Positions 1,554 to 9,423 of a stretch of DNA of 9,423 nucleotides are shown here, piece after piece; position 1 is the stretch's first letter; each line of letters opens with the position of its first letter. The notes under the pieces are model-generated. The model was not told the DNA's origin. It saw nothing but the letters and a program-made list of their open reading frames with translations, and did not search any database. Origin of the DNA: Zetaproteobacteria bacterium. Lineage in GTDB: Bacteria > Pseudomonadota > Zetaproteobacteria > Mariprofundales > Mariprofundaceae. Both the position numbers and the translations under genes were made by a program. The stretch is taken from NCBI GenBank assembly GCA_021545665.1, contig JAJRTX010000054.1:1-9423 (forward strand), in the 5' to 3' direction.

Positions 1554-1628
1554 CAATTATCGAAGCTAAAAAATATTATATAAAAGTTTTCTATTTAAAG
1601 TATTGAAGTGACAGGAGAAGTGTTTGTG

Positions 1629-4600
1629 ATGTACCCGATTAGAAGTTTATTGTATCTGATGGTGGCTGTTGCCCTCTGTTCAGTGTCGGTGACCAGTTCC
1701 AATGCGTTAACATTGACACCTGAGCAGATGCAAAAAATCCAGCAGCTATCGCCTGCGGAGCGTGAAGCACTTGCTAAACAGGCAGGGGTTTCCCCATCTC
1801 CTAATCCAGCCAAAAGTGTTAACTCTCCCCGGGTTATAAAACTTCGTACAGTAGGTACTGGTCCTCTGGAAAGGGAGGCCTCGGCTGTTGGTGCTGATTC
1901 TGGCCAGCAAGCAGCGGAAGTATCGCAATCATCTGCGGTTGATGTTCCGGTGGAAAAGGTGGCGGGATCTGCAGGCGCAGACAAGCTTGAAATCCGTCGC
2001 GCATTTTCTGATTTCGTTAGTGAATCAAAACCATTGATTGTTAATGCAGAAAACCTCAAACAGTTCGGTTATGATCTCTTTGCCGGTTCTCCGACCACTT
2101 TTGCCCCGGCGACAGATGTGCCTGTTCCTGCTGAATATGTACTCGGACCCGGTGATGAGTTGGAAGTGCAGCTGTTTGGCGCTAAAAACGATCAGTTTAC
2201 ACTCGTGGTGGACAGAGAAGGGGTAGTAGCATTTCCTGAGATTGGCCCGGTTGTGCTTGCTGGTATGAGCTTCTCAGGTGCCAAAGCACTGCTGGCTCAG
2301 CAGATTGGCGAAAAAATGATTGGCGTTACAGCTAGCATTAGTATGGGCAAGCTCCGCTCAATCCGTATTTTTGCGTTGGGAGAGGTTGCAAAGCCCGGTT
2401 CTTATGTGGTCAGTGGCCTTGCAACACTATCACATGCGCTGCTGGTATCCGGTGGAGTTAAGAAAATAGGATCTCTGCGAAACATTCAACTTAAACGAGG
2501 TGGTAAAGTAGTTGGAAGCATAGACCTTTATGACTTTTTACTTCGTGGTGATACAGGTGGTGACATGCGTTTGTTACCCGGTGATGTGGTGTTTGTGCCT
2601 CCAATTGGCATCACTGTTGGCATAGCTGGAGAAGTTGCTCGCCCTGCTATTTATGAGGTTGGTCGTCGCACAGATGTAGGTGACATGGTTAAACTTGCAG
2701 GTGGATATCTTCCCAAGGCTTATCGGGCAAAAGCGCTACTTGAACGTATCAATCGGTCTGGGGAAAAAGAAGTGTTAAATTTCCCTCTTAAAGGGAGAGG
2801 TCTCAAGACGCGTATTCGTAATGGTGACGTCATTAAAGTTTTCTCTATCCTCGAATTTGAAAGGAATCCGGTTTTGTTGATTGGGAACGTTAAGCGCCCT
2901 GGTAAATATGCATGGAAAAAGGGCATGCATCTTTCCCAGTTGCTGCCAAATCAGGATGTTCTATTACCTGAAACCTTTATGGATTACGGTCTGATTGAGA
3001 GAGAGGCAGAAGGGAATCGTGAACCGGAGGTAATCAGATTCCGTCTTAGTGATCTGTTTGTATCAGGAAAGCAACATGTGGATGTTTCTCTCAAACCGCG
3101 TGATAAAGTCTATGTGTTCCATCGATCACATTTTCGGCAAGCGCCTCAGGCTACTATTGCAGGGAGTGTGAAGTCACCGGGTTCATACGAGTTGAAGAAA
3201 AACATGCAAATTCTGGATTTAATTTTGGCTGCCGGAGGTACAACCAAAGATACCTCTTTTGCCGATGCTGAGCTCTACCGAACAGACCCTGTTACTAAAA
3301 AGGTTAGTATCTCTCACTTCTCTGTCTCTGATGTGATGGAAGGGTCATCGTTGGCAAATCTGTTTATTCAGGATCTAGATAAGGTTATTATACACTCAAT
3401 ATGGGAAAATCAGCATCGGAAAGTGCTTCACATACAAGGTGAAGTTAATAATCCTGGAGAGTTCGAATTTGGTGAGGGAATGAAGGTTTCAGACCTTATT
3501 TTCGCAGCTGGTGGGGTTACCCGAAATGTGTTGCTGGAAAATATTCAAATCTATAGAACGGACGAAGCAAGCAAAAAAATATCGCTGATTACAGTTGATT
3601 TACCTGCTGTGCTTCAAGGAGATGAAAAGAATAATATTGCCCTTCAGGATCTGGATAAAGTGATTATTCACTCAATTTGGGAAACTGTTCAACGTCATAA
3701 AGTCTATGTACATGGAGCAATTAAAAAACCTGGAGCATATGACTTTGCAAGTTCAGGGATGCGCCTCTCTGACCTTGTTTTTGCAGCAGGTGGAGTTACA
3801 GAGCAAGCTTTTCTTCAGCAGACAGAAATCACTCGATATAAGATAGTAAATGGAGAAAAGCGGGAGACGACTCACTTCGAGGTTAGACTTGGCGATGCTC
3901 TTAACGGTGTGAAAGAGGCTGATGTATTACTCCAGCCCTATGATGTGCTTATGGTGCGGACTATAAGCAACTGGCGATCATTGGAGCAGGTAGAGTTAAA
4001 AGGAGAGTTCAAATTTCCCGGCATCTATATCATTGAAGATGGCGAAACGATTTCGCAAGTGATCGAAAGGGCCGGAGGATTTACGAAGGATGCATTTGTA
4101 TCAGCGGCATTCTTTTCCAGAAAATCGATTCGAGAGCAGCAGAAGAAGATCTTGAAAGAGTATGCAGATCGCCTGGAGAGGGAGGTGACCCAGGCTCAGA
4201 CAGCTATTCAATCCGTTAATAATCCCAAGCTGCTTGCAAATAAACAGAAGGGATTATCAGCAGCCCAGACGGTTCTGGAGAAGTATCGGAAGCTGAAACC
4301 TGAAGGGCGGTTGCTGATTGATATTGATGAAAGTGGCAAGTTGAAAGATGGCGCAACTCTGAAGCTTGCGGATGCAGACACCCTCTATGTGCCGAAACGA
4401 CCTGACCAGGTGATGGTCATTGGCGAAGTTTATAATCAGTCGGCCATGCTCTATCGCAAGAATATGGACAGGGATGACTTTATTGCTCTGGCAGGCGGTG
4501 CAACCAGCATGGCTGATGATGATCGTATCTATATTATCAGGGCGAACGGCTATGTTGATTCAGGCAGTGGCTGGAGTAAAAACACCACCATGTATCCTGG

Positions 4601-4727
4601 AGATAGCATTGTTGTACCGCAAAAACTTGAGGCATTTAACCTGCTGGACAGCACCCTGGACTGGTCGAAAGTGTTGATGCAGATCGGTGTCTTTACTGCT
4701 TCGATGGTCGCTGTGGGAATATTGTAA
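1629..4727 (+). CDS. Multi-SLBB polysaccharide export protein (Wza-like, long form)
   Basis: Predicted exported channel or scaffold protein for surface polysaccharide, in the periplasm/outer membrane. Using ATG 1629 it has 1032 residues; AGGAG at 1613-1617 lies 11 nt upstream, and in-frame GTG 1626 is an alternative. Residues 1-26 are a signal peptide with probable cleavage after SSNA; unlike Wza it lacks a lipobox cysteine. A Pro/Ala/Ser/Val-rich linker follows. The polysaccharide-export domain begins near residue 170 (YVLGPGDELEVQLFG). About eight SLBB-type modules follow, recognisable by G(E/S/N)V..PG.Y and AGG signatures, starting near residues 240, 325, 412, 508, 597, 690, 787 and 925. 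A charged coiled coil occupies about 830-890 and a hydrophobic segment ends the chain (about 1013-1032). Wza is roughly 380 residues with fewer SLBB units, so this is a strongly expanded form. It is first in the operon. Family assignment is firm; the transported glycan is unknown. Confidence 0.9.
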   Translation: MYPIRSLLYLMVAVALCSVSVTSSNALTLTPEQMQKIQQLSPAEREALAKQAGVSPSPNPAKSVNSPRVIKLRTVGTGPLEREASAVGADSGQQAAEVSQSSAVDVPVEKVAGSAGADKLEIRRAFSDFVSESKPLIVNAENLKQFGYDLFAGSPTTFAPATDVPVPAEYVLGPGDELEVQLFGAKNDQFTLVVDREGVVAFPEIGPVVLAGMSFSGAKALLAQQIGEKMIGVTASISMGKLRSIRIFALGEVAKPGSYVVSGLATLSHALLVSGGVKKIGSLRNIQLKRGGKVVGSIDLYDFLLRGDTGGDMRLLPGDVVFVPPIGITVGIAGEVARPAIYEVGRRTDVGDMVKLAGGYLPKAYRAKALLERINRSGEKEVLNFPLKGRGLKTRIRNGDVIKVFSILEFERNPVLLIGNVKRPGKYAWKKGMHLSQLLPNQDVLLPETFMDYGLIEREAEGNREPEVIRFRLSDLFVSGKQHVDVSLKPRDKVYVFHRSHFRQAPQATIAGSVKSPGSYELKKNMQILDLILAAGGTTKDTSFADAELYRTDPVTKKVSISHFSVSDVMEGSSLANLFIQDLDKVIIHSIWENQHRKVLHIQGEVNNPGEFEFGEGMKVSDLIFAAGGVTRNVLLENIQIYRTDEASKKISLITVDLPAVLQGDEKNNIALQDLDKVIIHSIWETVQRHKVYVHGAIKKPGAYDFASSGMRLSDLVFAAGGVTEQAFLQQTEITRYKIVNGEKRETTHFEVRLGDALNGVKEADVLLQPYDVLMVRTISNWRSLEQVELKGEFKFPGIYIIEDGETISQVIERAGGFTKDAFVSAAFFSRKSIREQQKKILKEYADRLEREVTQAQTAIQSVNNPKLLANKQKGLSAAQTVLEKYRKLKPEGRLLIDIDESGKLKDGATLKLADADTLYVPKRPDQVMVIGEVYNQSAMLYRKNMDRDDFIALAGGATSMADDDRIYIIRANGYVDSGSGWSKNTTMYPGDSIVVPQKLEAFNLLDSTLDWSKVLMQIGVFTASMVAVGIL
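3369..3845 (+). repeat. Internal duplication of SLBB modules within the export gene
   Basis: The peptide QDLDKVIIHSIWE occurs exactly twice, at nt 3369-3407 and 3645-3683, 276 nt (92 codons) apart in the same frame. Each copy is followed by an SLBB module sharing FAAGGVT and similar flanks. Synonymous differences between the copies (for example GATCTAGATAAGG against GATCTGGATAAAG) show that the duplication is not brand new but the protein has been conserved. Confidence 0.8.
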
Positions 4728-4730
4728 GAT

Positions 4731-4765
4731 AGTGCTGAGTAACGAGTGGTGAGTGCTGAGTAACG
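4731..4765 (+). repeat. Left heptad-repeat block (five 7-bp units)
   Basis: Five consecutive 7-bp units: AGTGCTG (4731), AGTAACG (4738), AGTGGTG (4745), AGTGCTG (4752), AGTAACG (4759). The 14-bp pair AGTGCTGAGTAACG thus occurs twice, 21 bp apart. In this orientation the repeat contains TGA, which falls in every frame because the period is not a multiple of three. The block overlaps the likely start of the IVP-type gene. Confidence 0.85.
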
Positions 4766-5144
4766 TGAAAAGAAAGCGTATTCAGAGTTTTGAGGACTTG
4801 GTTGCATGGCAAAAAGCCAGAGAGCTGAATCGGGTATCTATCAGATTACAAGTTCTGGCGCGTTTGCAAAAGATTACGGATTCCGGGATCAGATACGTAG
4901 GTCATCTGTTTCAGTCTCATCAAATGTTGCAGAGGGGTTTGATCGCGCATCCAGCGCTGATTTCCACAGGTTTGTTGTGATTGCGAAGGCTTCATGTGCC
5001 GAGGTACAATCACAGCTATATCTTGCTCTTGATGTTGGTTACATTGGACAGGAAGAGTTTGAAGTGTTGATGGCACAAGCAAAAGAGGTTGCAAAGATTC
5101 TCGGTGGACTGAGAAAAGCACTGCAAAAGAAGAAGGAAGTATAA
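4765..5144 (+). pseudogene. Four-helix-bundle (23S rRNA IVP/S23-type) protein gene, frameshifted
   Basis: The protein family includes the product of the 23S rRNA intervening sequence and related small helical proteins; its function is not established. The N-terminal part reads KRIQSFEDLVAWQKARELNR from GTG 4765 (GTG 4753, inside the repeat, is an in-frame alternative). The frame must then change near 4832-4834, a GGG run, to reach IYQITSSGAFAKDYGFRDQ and the family signature QIRRSSVSVSSNVAEG, ending at TAA 5142. Restoring one base gives about 126 residues, close to the family norm. The in-frame ATG at 4806 would yield an unrelated N-terminus and is unlikely to be real. A sequencing error, recent decay or programmed frameshifting could explain the break; simple decay or error is most likely. 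The gene ends two bases before the next start codon. Confidence 0.8.
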
Positions 5145-5146
5145 TA

Positions 5147-6160
5147 ATGGATAAGACTGGCGATGGGGAAAGAGTGATAAGTAACGAAGAACTAGAAAAT
5201 GGTACTGAAAGAGAAGTGGCGAGCAACGAGTCAACCACTCAGCACTCAGCACTCGCCCCTCAGTGTCTATATCCTCATTGCTCAGCACTCGCTGCTCAAT
5301 CCTATCCTGACGATGAGATTGATCTTCTGGAATACTGGCGAATTATCTGGAAAAGGCGCTGGCTGATTATCGGTGTTGTATTTTTAGCAGCAGTGCTGGC
5401 AGCAGGTTATTCACTCACATTACCCAATATTTATCGTGCCGAAGTAGTTATCACGCCAGTCGGCGAAAAAAGCAACAGGGGGCAATCATTTGGTGGCCTC
5501 AGCGGTCTGGCTTCGATGGCAGGGATCTCATTGGGTGGCGGGGGTGGAGATGTAAGGGTGAATTTGGCGGTGTTGAAGTCACGCGAATTTCTCCGGGCTT
5601 TTGTTAAAGAGAACAAACTGAAGCCGGTGCTGTTTGCAGAGAGCTGGAACAGTGAAAGCAAGTCATGGCAGGAAGGTGAACCCACTCAATGGGATACATA
5701 CCGGCTGTTTAATAAACTTCTTTCTGTTTCCTCGGGTAAGAAGTCAGGGATAGTCACTGTCGCTGTTGAATGGACTGATGCCAGTCTGGCAGCAACGTGG
5801 GCCAATGATCTGGTAACGCGCCTGAATGCTCATTTAAGGCAGGAAGCCCTCCAGCGCAGCAAGCAAACACTTGGGTATCTGAATGATGAACTGGGCAAGG
5901 TGAGGGTGGCGGAAATGCGACAGGCGCTGTTTGATCTTATTTCACAGGAACAGAAAAAAGCCATGTTGGCCAGCACCCAAAAGGAATATTCTTTCAGAGT
6001 GTTGGATGCGGCGGTGGTACCCGATAGAAAAGCCAAGCCAAAGAGGTTAATGATCGTCATTCTTTCTGTGCTAGTGAGCGGATTTCTGACAGTCATTGGC
6101 GTATTCATTTCAGAAAGCGTAAAAAAACGTAGAGAAAAAAATGAGTTTTTAGAGGGCTGA
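5147..6160 (+). CDS. Wzz/chain-length-determinant family inner-membrane protein
   Basis: Predicted polysaccharide co-polymerase controlling glycan chain length, anchored in the inner membrane with a large periplasmic domain. It has 337 residues. The Wzz-type entry sequence DDEIDLLEYWRIIWKRRW precedes the first membrane helix (about 72-93). A Gly-rich stretch (115-136), a helical periplasmic region with the family motif VVPDRKAKPKR, and a second helix (about 301-321) follow, then a basic tail. No Walker motifs are present, so this is not a fused tyrosine autokinase. The first ~57 residues are atypical: they are translated from the heptad-repeat block (for example TTQHSALAP and CSALAAQ). No ATG between 5149 and the core could serve as the native start, so initiation depends on ATG 5147, with AGGA (5134-5137) lying inside the preceding IVP gene. 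It probably pairs with the upstream SLBB protein. Confidence 0.88.
   Translation: MDKTGDGERVISNEELENGTEREVASNESTTQHSALAPQCLYPHCSALAAQSYPDDEIDLLEYWRIIWKRRWLIIGVVFLAAVLAAGYSLTLPNIYRAEVVITPVGEKSNRGQSFGGLSGLASMAGISLGGGGGDVRVNLAVLKSREFLRAFVKENKLKPVLFAESWNSESKSWQEGEPTQWDTYRLFNKLLSVSSGKKSGIVTVAVEWTDASLAATWANDLVTRLNAHLRQEALQRSKQTLGYLNDELGKVRVAEMRQALFDLISQEQKKAMLASTQKEYSFRVLDAAVVPDRKAKPKRLMIVILSVLVSGFLTVIGVFISESVKKRREKNEFLEG
5173..5296. repeat. Right heptad-repeat block, overlapping the Wzz 5' coding region
   Basis: Forward-oriented degenerate units occur first: AGTGATA and AGTAACG (5173-5186), then AGTGGCG, AGCAACG and AGTCAAC (5215-5235). Reverse-oriented units follow: CAGCACT twice (5240-5253), CGCCCCT, a degenerate stretch, then CATTGCT, CAGCACT, CGCTGCT (5276-5296). 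The change of orientation allows AGTGG (5215-5219) to pair with CCACT (5235-5239). Relative to the left block the outer part is inverted. In reverse orientation the repeat is free of stop codons in all frames, encoding QHSALST-like peptides, so it can be read through by Wzz. Confidence 0.75.
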
Positions 6161-6219: not shown

Positions 6220-6281
6220 TTATAACTTGTGGAGTTTAAATTGATGAAAATTATAACTTGTGGAGTTTAAATTGATGAAGA
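6220..6281 (+). repeat. 31-bp tandem duplication of the ugd translation start region
   Basis: Two adjacent 31-bp copies (6220-6250 and 6251-6281) are identical except for A against G at position 30 of the unit (6249/6280). Each holds the sequence TGTGGAGTTTAAATTGATGAA, so the Shine-Dalgarno GGAG and the ATG are both doubled. Only the second ATG (6275) is in frame with ugd. Confidence 0.9.
6244..6270 (+). CDS. Short upstream ORF created by the duplicated ugd start
   Basis: The first copy of the duplicated start region has its own GGAG and ATG and encodes eight residues, MKIITCGV, before TAA (6268-6270). It overlaps the Shine-Dalgarno of the real ugd start, so translating ribosomes would stop just upstream of ATG 6275. 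This could couple, delay or compete with ugd initiation. It may equally be a neutral by-product of the duplication; no peptide function is claimed. Confidence 0.35.
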
Positions 6282-7441
6282 TTGCCATTGCAGGCACCGG
6301 ATACGTTGGCCTCTCTAATGCCATGCTACTTGCTCAGCACAATGAGGTTGTGGCGATCGATATAATACCCGAAAAGGTCTCGATGCTTAATTGCAAACAG
6401 TCGCCTATTGAAGATGCCGAAATTGAGGACTATCTGACCAACAAGCCTCTAAAATTTCGAGCCACACTTGATAAGCAGGAGGCTTACGAGGGTGCTGATT
6501 ATGTCATTATCGCTACGCCCACCGACTATGACCCTAAATCGCACTACTTTAACACAAGTTCGGTAGAGTCAGTGATTAATGATGTCCTGAGCATCAATCC
6601 GAATGCGGTAATGATTATAAAGTCCACCGTGCCCGTGGGTTTTACTGCAAGTGTTAGTACCAAGTTTGACTGTAATAATCTGGTTTTTTCGCCCGAATTT
6701 CTACGTGAAGGCAAGGCTCTTTATGATAATCTTCATCCTTCACGCATTGTGATGGGTGAGCACTCCGAACGCGCAGAGGTATTTGTCGCTCTCCTCAAGC
6801 AGGGGGCAATAAAAGAGGGTATTCCTGTATTGTTCACAGACTCCACCGAGGCGGAGTCGATCAAGCTTTTCTCTAATACCTATCTAGCTATGCGGGTAGC
6901 CTATTTTAATGAGTTGGACAGTTATGCGGTGACACATGGCTTAGACTCTAGGCAAATCATTCAAGGGGTTTGCCTAGATTCCCGTATTGGTGACCACTAT
7001 AATAATCCTTCATTCGGTTACGGTGGGTACTGCCTACCTAAGGACACCAAACAATTGCTGGCCAATTATCAGAATGTACCACAAAACCTTATCCATGCCA
7101 TCGTTGAGGCCAATGCCACACGAAAGAATTTCATTGCAGACAGTATTCTAAAGTGTAAGCCCAGAGTCATTGGCATCTACCGTCTTATTATGAAGAACGG
7201 TTCTGACAATTTTCGTGCCTCCAGCGTTCAGGGGATTATGAAGCGAATCAAAGCGAAAGGAATAGAAGTGATTATCTATGAACCCGTGCTGAATACACCA
7301 GAGTTTTTTAATTCACGTGTAATTGGAGATTTTGAGGAGTTTAAACAGAAGTCTGATGTGATTGTTGCCAATCGCATGTCGGATGTCCTTAATGATGTTG
7401 AAGGCAAAGTGTATACCAGAGACCTGTTTGGTCGCGACTGA
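6275..7441 (+). CDS. ugd: UDP-glucose 6-dehydrogenase
   Basis: Oxidises UDP-glucose to UDP-glucuronate with two NAD+ in the cytoplasm, supplying the acidic sugar donor for capsule/exopolysaccharide. The product has 388 residues, the same length as enterobacterial Ugd, and aligns along its whole length from memory. Seen: NAD-binding [15 protein letters not shown] at the N-terminus, STVPVGFT (Thr118), FSPEFLREG (Glu141), [14 protein letters not shown], and the catalytic cysteine Cys253 in [14 protein letters not shown]; the C-terminal UDP-binding part has [12 protein letters not shown] 6275 is chosen because GGAG lies 9 nt upstream and the NAD motif begins at once; an in-frame GTG at 6260 is unlikely. 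Its codon use looks somewhat different from the following dehydrogenase gene, which could indicate separate acquisition, but this was judged by eye. Confidence 0.96.
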
Positions 7442-8789: not shown

Positions 8790-8816
8790 AGCCACGAATG
8801 AAGGCACGGCAATAAG
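8790..8816 (+). repeat. Left direct repeat flanking the GxxExxY gene
   Basis: This copy begins AGCCACGAATGA and continues with GCACG and AATAA separated by two-base insertions. It matches the copy at 9255-9278 in the same orientation. Confidence 0.75.
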
Positions 8817-8874: not shown

Positions 8875-9246
8875 GTGACAGAGATAATTTATGAAGAATT
8901 TTCGTTTCAGGTGATGTCAGCTGTATTTGAAATACATAATGTGCTTGGCTCAGGGTTCTTGGAAAAAGTGTATGAGAATGCGTTGGTTAAAGAGTTTGGA
9001 ATAAGGAATATTCCGGTTGAAACACAAAGAGAAATAAGCGTCTCATACAAAGGTGAAGATATAGGTAAATATTACGCTGACATACTGGTGGGTGGAAAAA
9101 TTATCATTGAGTTGAAGGCTGTTGATAAGATAAGCCGCTTGCATGAAGCGCAGTTATTGAATTACTTAAAGGCGACAGGAATAAAACTCGGTTATTTGAT
9201 TAACATGGGCGGCAAAAGCGTAGCGTACAAGAGGCTGGTATATTAA
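8875..9246 (+). CDS. GxxExxY protein (PD-(D/E)XK nuclease-like, PDDEXK_3 family)
   Basis: A 123-residue protein of the GxxExxY family, whose function is not established; its fold resembles PD-(D/E)XK nucleases. Seen: the name motif GFLEKVY (residues 27-33), and a nuclease-like core with Asp69 in YYADILVGG and Glu79/Lys81 in IIIELKAV, followed by EAQLLNYLKATG and the typical end LGYLINMGGKSVAYKRLVY. It appears full length and intact. The start is GTG 8875, preceded by GAGG at 8861-8864; ATG 8867 is out because it meets TGA after three codons. It is set between two near-identical direct repeats at the end of the polysaccharide operon, suggesting an inserted cargo gene rather than part of the pathway. 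No partner gene or antitoxin is adjacent. Confidence 0.88.
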   Translation: MTEIIYEEFSFQVMSAVFEIHNVLGSGFLEKVYENALVKEFGIRNIPVETQREISVSYKGEDIGKYYADILVGGKIIIELKAVDKISRLHEAQLLNYLKATGIKLGYLINMGGKSVAYKRLVY

Positions 9247-9254
9247 AAAAGCAT

Positions 9255-9278
9255 AGCCACGAATGAGCACGAATAAAG
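9255..9278 (+). repeat. Right direct repeat flanking the GxxExxY gene
   Basis: AGCCACGAATGA is identical to 8790-8801, followed directly by GCACG and AATAAAG without the two small insertions of the left copy. It starts eight bases after the GxxExxY stop. The short unit CACGAAT appears twice here (9258-9264 and 9268-9274). Confidence 0.75.
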
Positions 9279-9287
9279 AAATACGCG

Positions 9288-9423
9288 GATTCAACTGCCA
9301 AGTGCAACTTCAGTGAGTTGAGTTTTGGTATTGAAGAACACTTCATGGGGTGTTCTGTAGCCCAGCGTTTTTCTTGGCCGATGATTGAGCCGGTGCATGA
9401 TGAAGTCAATCTCGTCATCAGTG
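9288..9423 (-). mobile_element. One end of an IS30-family insertion sequence (partial)
   Basis: The transposase C-terminus lies at 9291-9423. In IS30 relatives the stop codon is often inside or next to the terminal inverted repeat, so the element end is probably near 9286-9291, at GATTCAACTGCCAAGTGCAA. The other inverted repeat is outside the window, so the border is approximate. The IS abuts the right direct repeat of the GxxExxY unit. Confidence 0.6.
9291..9423 (-). CDS. IS30-family transposase, C-terminal end (partial)
   Basis: Read on the minus strand, 43 codons enter from the right edge and stop at 9291-9293. The peptide includes DEIDFIMHRLNHRPRKTLGY and RTPHEVFF, the characteristic end of the IS30-family DDE transposase catalytic domain (LNxRPRKxLG(F/Y)xTPxEVF). 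The catalytic Asp residues lie outside the window; the family's Glu would be upstream as well. IS30 elements transpose through circular intermediates. The gene points towards the GxxExxY gene, so the two are convergent. A longer minus-strand frame through the same bases is a shadow. Confidence 0.88.
   Translation of the reverse strand, partial: TDDEIDFIMHRLNHRPRKTLGYRTPHEVFFNTKTQLTEVALGS

Follow-up and report, generated by a model that had tools for sequence, protein, structure and literature searches.

We describe a hairpin element composed of two inverted arms of heptad repeats, most often of the form AGT(N4AGT)4 (31 nt), and of a loop between them that holds either the gene of an IVP (S23-type) four-helix-bundle protein or just some 7 to 98 bases; arms also occur singly. 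The arms are abundant almost only in IVP-carrying genomes, and the heptad-armed IVP hairpin is apparently a widespread and undescribed kind of genetic element. The analysis started from 9,423 nucleotides of a Zetaproteobacteria bacterium (this whole stretch is called the window), where the initial annotation had noticed an IVP gene bracketed by 7-bp repeats and had known of no description of such a unit; likewise, no report of a link between heptads and IVP outside rRNA was found in the text available from the open-licence PMC literature.

The unit in the window is situated in a polysaccharide operon, as had been recognized from the start, and its parts and direct neighbours are the following:

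1608 to 4727, plus strand: polysaccharide export gene (SLBB, Poly_export; Pfam), upstream, its stop codon abutting the left arm
4731 to 4761, plus strand: left arm, a run of exactly five AGT triplets, spaced exactly 7 bp apart, AGT(N4AGT)4, 31 nt
4765 to 5144, plus strand: IVP / four-helix-bundle gene (profile matches) with one frame break near 4830-4850
5147 to 6160, plus strand: wzz (chain length determinant) ORF (Pfam), with the right arrays in its 5' part
5173 to 5186, plus strand: direct-orientation doublet of heptads, weak, with 86% to the left-arm word
5234 to 5263, minus strand: right arm, first inverted array, translated within the wzz ORF; 27 nt, 85% complementary to 4735-4761, the best arm pair in the window
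5274 to 5298, minus strand: right arm, second inverted array; pairs with 4744-4762 as the closing 19-bp stem when the RNA structure is predicted

Two UDP-sugar (nucleotide-sugar) dehydrogenases and then a GxxExxY gene (8875-9246) follow 3' of Wzz, and the nearest named protein relatives of the window include several Zetaproteobacteria (Mariprofundus, Mariprofundaceae). None of the eight window ORFs scanned is a reverse transcriptase, and an ORF at the 3' end (9200-9421, minus strand) was rejected as a transposase piece, having no Pfam family match. Two further features of the window were recorded: a 31-bp tandem duplication (6220-6283, 96% identity) stands directly before the UDP-glucose dehydrogenase gene, and the DEAD-box helicase gene at 203-895 seemingly lacks its N-terminal part, the DEAD profile being matched only from position 114 of 167 and followed by a full Helicase_C domain.

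The left arm begins 3 nt past the stop codon of the export gene and its heptads extend to 4765, the words being AGTGCTG, AGTAACG, AGTGGTG and once more AGTGCTG and AGTAACG. Heptads to the left of the IVP gene and inverted copies to its right, as first noticed, were confirmed (4731-4765; 5234-5263 and 5274-5298). On the right-hand side the inverted orientation held; the array is not intergenic and forms part of the coding sequence near the 5' end of the wzz ORF. The statement that the ends are not classical inverted repeats did not hold in that form: they are ordinary inverted repeats that happen to consist of heptads. Doublets of the types GAGTNNNGAGT and ACTCNNNACTC occur six times in the window, five of these within the unit, whereas 500 dinucleotide shuffles gave 0.24 on average and never more than 3; the generic period-7 score of the window (12) is only just outside the maximum of 200 shuffles (11), owing to the degeneracy of this copy. 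When 4722-5305 is folded as RNA, the left arm and the second right array close a 19-bp stem in both the MFE and the centroid structure, and the total fold energy is ordinary (z = -1.35). Inverted ends able to form a closing stem are present, degenerate in the window and strong in many relatives.

The family assignment of the annotated gene stood: the C-terminal frame matched PF05635 (8e-31, 106.8 bits, cut-off 33.8) and TIGR02436 (8e-31, 106.6 bits, cut-off 24). The gene is not intact, however, since its N-terminal part, which gave no family match on its own in the profile search, lies in the frame of ORF 4753-4980 and the remainder in ORF 4806-5144. Owing to this single frame change the window copy looks decayed, unless an assembly error accounts for it. 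We see an even chance that the unit represents a hairpin element widespread in bacteria, here in a decayed state and with its right arm absorbed into the wzz coding sequence.

Relatives of this locus were compared at the protein level. In the 453-aa protein P0016 IVP and Wzz are joined in frame, and the junction of this natural fusion looks like translated heptad sequence; the IVP P0142 and the Wzz P0008, both from contigs of 7253, are probably neighbours. Signatures of translated heptads at the Wzz N-terminus were counted at least once in 8 and twice or more in 4 of 109 homologs, the window's own included; this count, made on those of the 120 listed homologs that have a recognisable start and with a signature chosen after seeing examples, is illustrative only. 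Since apparent translated heptads open some Wzz homologs and are missing from the rest, the arms probably do not belong to wzz as a constant component.

In order to see the unit in other genomes, contigs were searched with an alignment of 30 IVP proteins, and the best 80 of at least 582 confirmed stretches (L001-L080), belonging to many phyla, were kept by protein similarity only. Period-7 arrays were present at most 250 bp from IVP in 60 of the 80 loci (left 46, right 43), compared with 90 of 1090 control places, which were random positions in the same 80 loci at least 1300 bp away. The enrichment was confined to period 7: periods 4-6 and 8-13 near IVP were found in at most 1 of the 80 loci. 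Flanks at background level had been named beforehand as the result that would speak against such a unit, and the opposite was obtained.

It should be emphasized that the repeat words vary from locus to locus, yet they agree between the two arms of one locus. The mean local arm score was 19.2 for own arms, 10.2 across loci and 9.3 for own arms in direct orientation, while the maximum in 10000 permutations was 12.3; an inverted array pair spanning the IVP gene was seen in 38 of the 80 loci under a stricter rule. With the arm coupling added to the 60 loci, it proved to be general that IVP genes are paired with oppositely oriented heptad arrays, as proposed originally from one locus. Even among orthologous sites the own arms fitted better: in six same-site groups (24 loci) they scored 20.5 versus 18.0 for ortholog arms (P = 0.0006), although the gain was small in the Nitrospira (16.0 vs 14.6) and betaproteobacterial (15.7 vs 13.4) groups, and in the deltaproteobacterial pair L060 and L064 an identical base change is found in both arms. 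A second IVP set, which was taken from 12 of the same genomes and overlaps the first, had period 7 in 23 and an own-arm score of at least 15 in 22 of its 29 loci.

Judged by the neighbours, the IVP units lie outside rRNA genes: those in the window are protein genes, and those of the 80 loci gave protein families. When the closest ORF of 100 aa or more was taken as the neighbour on either side, both neighbours were co-directional with IVP in 55 loci, both opposed in 3 and mixed in 20, and one neighbour was missing in 2; some of the mixed cases stem from spurious ORFs, and orthologous sites recur among these counts. The Pfam functions of the neighbours were diverse, nucleotide-sugar enzymes being the commonest (GDP_Man_Dehyd 9 times on the left, 6 on the right), in a scan that covered 57 neighbours on the left and 63 on the right, out of 79 on each side, and omitted mainly orthologous-site repeats and ORFs overlapping IVP on the opposite strand.

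The arm behaves as a defined unit. Exact AGT runs at 7-bp spacing in the 80 loci numbered 45 with three triplets, 41 with four, 59 with five, 9 with six, 7 with seven and 14 longer; the peak at five was also met in stretches of two genomes, G006 (23 runs) and G003 (18 runs). Long perfect arrays, of 17 and 22 units, exist as well. In these genomes 40 stretches, chosen for holding arms or IVP, were inspected (three without an AGT-type array): the small hairpins, solo arms and IVP-bearing units of a genome have the same arm words, so that many inverted doublets forming hairpins are found together with singlets in one genome. Twenty-three small AGT-type hairpins had loops of 7 to 98 nt; 11 lay between convergent genes, 8 between tandem and 1 between divergent ones, 2 were inside ORFs and 1 was unclassified. 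Among 54 arms no target consensus was apparent; the base before the arm was T in 15 of 22 cases in G003, and there was no such base in the 32 arms of G006. Neither at these 54 arms nor at the Nostoc site described below was an insertion event, a target duplication or an intermediate seen.

The dependence of the arms on IVP was examined in 199 genomes evenly drawn from the Acidobacteriota phylum, to which G006 (a Terriglobia MAG, the genome of L036) belongs. IVP was matched in 99 of them (93 over the cut-off) and AGT(N4AGT)4 in 83; both occurred in 74, IVP only in 25, the arm only in 9 and neither in 91 (odds ratio 30, p = 1e-22). A sample of 200 genomes from the phylum Pseudomonadota, that of G004 (Thiohalophilus, the genome of L031), gave 37 IVP matches (34 over the cut-off) and the corresponding distribution 18/19/7/156 (odds ratio 21, p = 2e-10); as the genomes are mutually related, both p-values are too small by an unknown amount. 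The IVP-positive genomes contained 6435 of 6492 arm matches in the first sample and 460 of 493 in the second, raw counts that are inflated by overlapping matches in long arrays. Since reversed-pattern controls match heptads too, IVP-negative genomes served as the control: arms were present in 9 of 100 (1 to 17 matches) and in 7 of 163, one of which (G262) has 11 matches. Conversely, 25 of 99 and 19 of 37 IVP-positive genomes had no AGT-type arms, the search pattern missing other heptads.

All 41 arm-rich genomes (at least 20 matches) of the 199 carry IVP, 37 of them Y1_Tnp and 21 RVT_1. With the RAYT subgroups pooled, Y1_Tnp was associated with arms at an odds ratio of 3.4 overall and 4.1 (p = 0.012) among IVP-positive genomes, showed no effect among the IVP-negative ones and was absent from 4 of the 41; for RVT_1 the odds ratio was 2.5. 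As drivers, Y1 transposases and reverse transcriptases are weaker than IVP, not absent. The IVP family itself was not found in fourteen well-known control genomes; PF05635 matches reach 13 per genome in G012 and 17 in genomes of the Acidobacteriota phylum, and the gene was found in 25 plasmid records, with no match in phage records.

Comparison of empty and occupied sites in close relatives, proposed with the initial annotation, was possible in Nostoc, where the L038 site was sought in 11 genomes and was readable in 10 (G214 gave weak matches only). G007 (L038) and G219 (L042), both already among the 80 loci, have IVP with GTGCTGA arms; in G220 the same stop codon is directly followed by an IVP that has diverged (PF05635 4e-20, TIGR02436 1e-25) and has arms of a different type (AAAAGGC and TTTTACC); in seven genomes there is no room for IVP and other short repeats are found instead. 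Since congeners hold an IVP unit, a diverged one or none at one same place, the site is re-used and its occupation by the gene is optional. The right array of G007 and of G219 is located in the 5' coding part of the downstream gene, like that of the window, and this gene has two heptads in G211 and few or none in the others. At conserved Nostoc intergenic sites (L181-L203, L226-L235) congeners carry heptad arrays of very different sequence or decamer-like repeats, as if the repeat blocks had been exchanged whole; no clean single insertion of a small hairpin was found there among the matches listed.

A second pairing of gene and arms was recognized. GxxExxY (PF13366) genes, too, stand between inverted short-period words: about three of the CRCRRAG type, spaced by 8-10 bp. 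In 22 loci (L204-L225), 19 of which were long enough for the arm test, own arms scored 23.6 versus 9.1 across loci, with permutations reaching at most 15.1 and a score of at least 15 in 15 of 19; the simple period test on these flanks was weak (period 8 in 5 of 19), the arm-matching test strong. In the 199 genomes the words were associated with the GxxExxY gene (30/44/6/119 genomes with both, gene only, words only and neither; odds ratio 13.5), and the reversed word pattern was matched in none. The words are also associated with IVP (34/65/2/98, odds ratio 25.6) and the GxxExxY gene with the heptads (odds ratio 6.4), which weakens the case for a specificity of IVP for heptads. IVP may be a marker of hairpin-rich genomes generally, and the results suggest a wider class. 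In the window, the CACGAATGA words near 8796 and 9257, around the GxxExxY gene, share orientation, and this copy fits the pattern poorly.

IVP is a homopentamer of four-helix bundles (PMC4990558), and the structures 2gsc and 2rld have five chains each. The proposal that IVP spreads or maintains the arms is in our judgement a toss-up. The homopentamer would recognise the hairpin form of the arm, in either single-stranded DNA or RNA, and might enable arm spread or upkeep in trans, in the role which the RAYT transposase has for REPINs; that the five AGT words answer to the five IVP subunits is a guess. No nuclease or transposase motif has, to our knowledge, been recognised in IVP. Within operons the stem, once transcribed, would be tolerated and perhaps cut by RNase III, as in the 23S rRNA intervening sequences. 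The common direction with host genes favours a tie to transcription, the hairpins between convergent genes favour DNA as the active form. Taken jointly, and held tentatively with the balance somewhat against it, these points would describe bacterial mobile hairpins that spread without a known transposase, with a pentameric four-helix-bundle protein reading five triplets per arm; the classical 23S rRNA intervening sequences would be copies landed in rRNA genes, and in a second family alongside, the GxxExxY nuclease-fold protein would have arms with a period of 8-10 bp as its partner, the window holding a member of each gene family.

Other explanations have to be weighed against a role of IVP in the spread or upkeep of the arms. 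The initial annotation had considered an RNA-level insertion, where the transcribed arms form a stem cut by RNase III, which removes the IVP segment from the message, and IVP takes no part in spread. The 55 loci with both neighbours along IVP (3 both against) and the 19-bp stem closing the window RNA would fit it, as would the rRNA intervening sequence with a terminal stem of 28 bp cut by RNase III, heptamers beside the S23 ORF and a protein that is probably not made (PMC4990558). Nevertheless we consider it unlikely that nothing more is involved: message excision is useless for the 11 of 23 small hairpins between convergent genes, the dependence of arms on IVP across genomes is left unexplained, and the fold energy of the window unit is ordinary. 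IVP could also be a nucleic-acid-binding regulator, with the arms as dispersed binding sites kept by selection on adjacent genes; regulatory roles were proposed for heptamers (PMC4679880, PMC2700814), and arms do lie close to gene ends and within operons. This appears improbable in view of the diverse functions of the neighbours, of the other repeats that replace repeats at conserved sites among congeners, and of the matching of arms per locus, which a binding site does not need.

Slippage and template switching, by which heptad arrays would arise and match through replication errors at hairpins with IVP merely resident, could account for the long perfect arrays (17 and 22 units), for the one array in a downstream gene that seemingly grew in place (the Nostoc site) and for the over-representation of heptamers among bacterial simple repeats (PMC4692102). 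Run lengths, however, peak at five rather than falling steadily, period 7 alone is enriched at IVP and arm matches are concentrated in IVP genomes; we give this explanation little credence, and as the main cause slippage alone was rejected on account of the five-AGT peak and the IVP link. Equally doubtful is a movement of the arms by some other enzyme, either a Y1 transposase of the RAYT type or a reverse transcriptase, with IVP in an accessory role or as a passenger. RAYTs are believed to bring about the spread of REPINs (PMC3116915), there is a resemblance between PF05635 and Avd, the accessory protein of DGRs (PMC10053308), and Y1_Tnp is present in 37 of 41 arm-rich genomes and associated with arms among IVP-positive ones; against this stand its low overall odds ratio, the lack of association among IVP-negative genomes and the still weaker figures of RVT_1 (2.5; 21 of 41).

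A participation of IVP in arm spread or upkeep would have consequences beyond the window. IVP/S23 proteins have been described as lacking a known function and heptamers have been reported piecemeal without a cause, and linking the two gives a testable explanation of both. The link also suggests where the 23S rRNA intervening sequences come from, and it would extend the REPIN-like systems to one that uses an unrelated protein. Moreover, heptad repeats occur often in environmental genomes, are situated in operons and can turn coding, as in wzz of the window.

Heptamer repeats were reported in Beggiatoaceae (TAACTGA), Cyanobacteria and Bacteroidetes (PMC4679880), in Xanthomonas (GGGAATC, mostly four units) and Nostoc (GGGGAYT) (PMC4692102), as four-unit heptads in G. 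metallireducens (PMC2700814) and in the P6b of the Nostoc trnL intron (PMC3488679). They share with our arms the 7-bp period, the few units and, partly, the inverted pairs; in the available portions of these papers they are explained as regulatory, quadruplex or intron features, without a link to IVP. The DGR accessory protein Avd belongs to a related fold family (4DWL and 2GSC, PMC10053308), whereas no reverse transcriptase or template/variable repeat pair was noticed in the window, the repeats found being heptads, and RVT_1 is weakly linked to arms. The 23S rRNA intervening sequences have the same protein family and a terminal stem, and in one described case heptamers beside the S23 ORF, reported on the 5' side only (PMC4990558); our 80 loci, in contrast, lie among protein genes, mostly inside operons, where RNase III cutting is putative. 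The closest likeness in organization is to REPINs and RAYTs, namely short inverted hairpin doublets and also singlets, many intergenic copies and a linked gene with these repeats on both sides (PMC3116915). The elements described here are known from sequence, with no movement seen, their arms are heptad arrays of varying sequence, and the linked protein is a four-helix bundle instead of a Y1 (RAYT) transposase, for which the odds ratio was 3.4 as against 30 for IVP.
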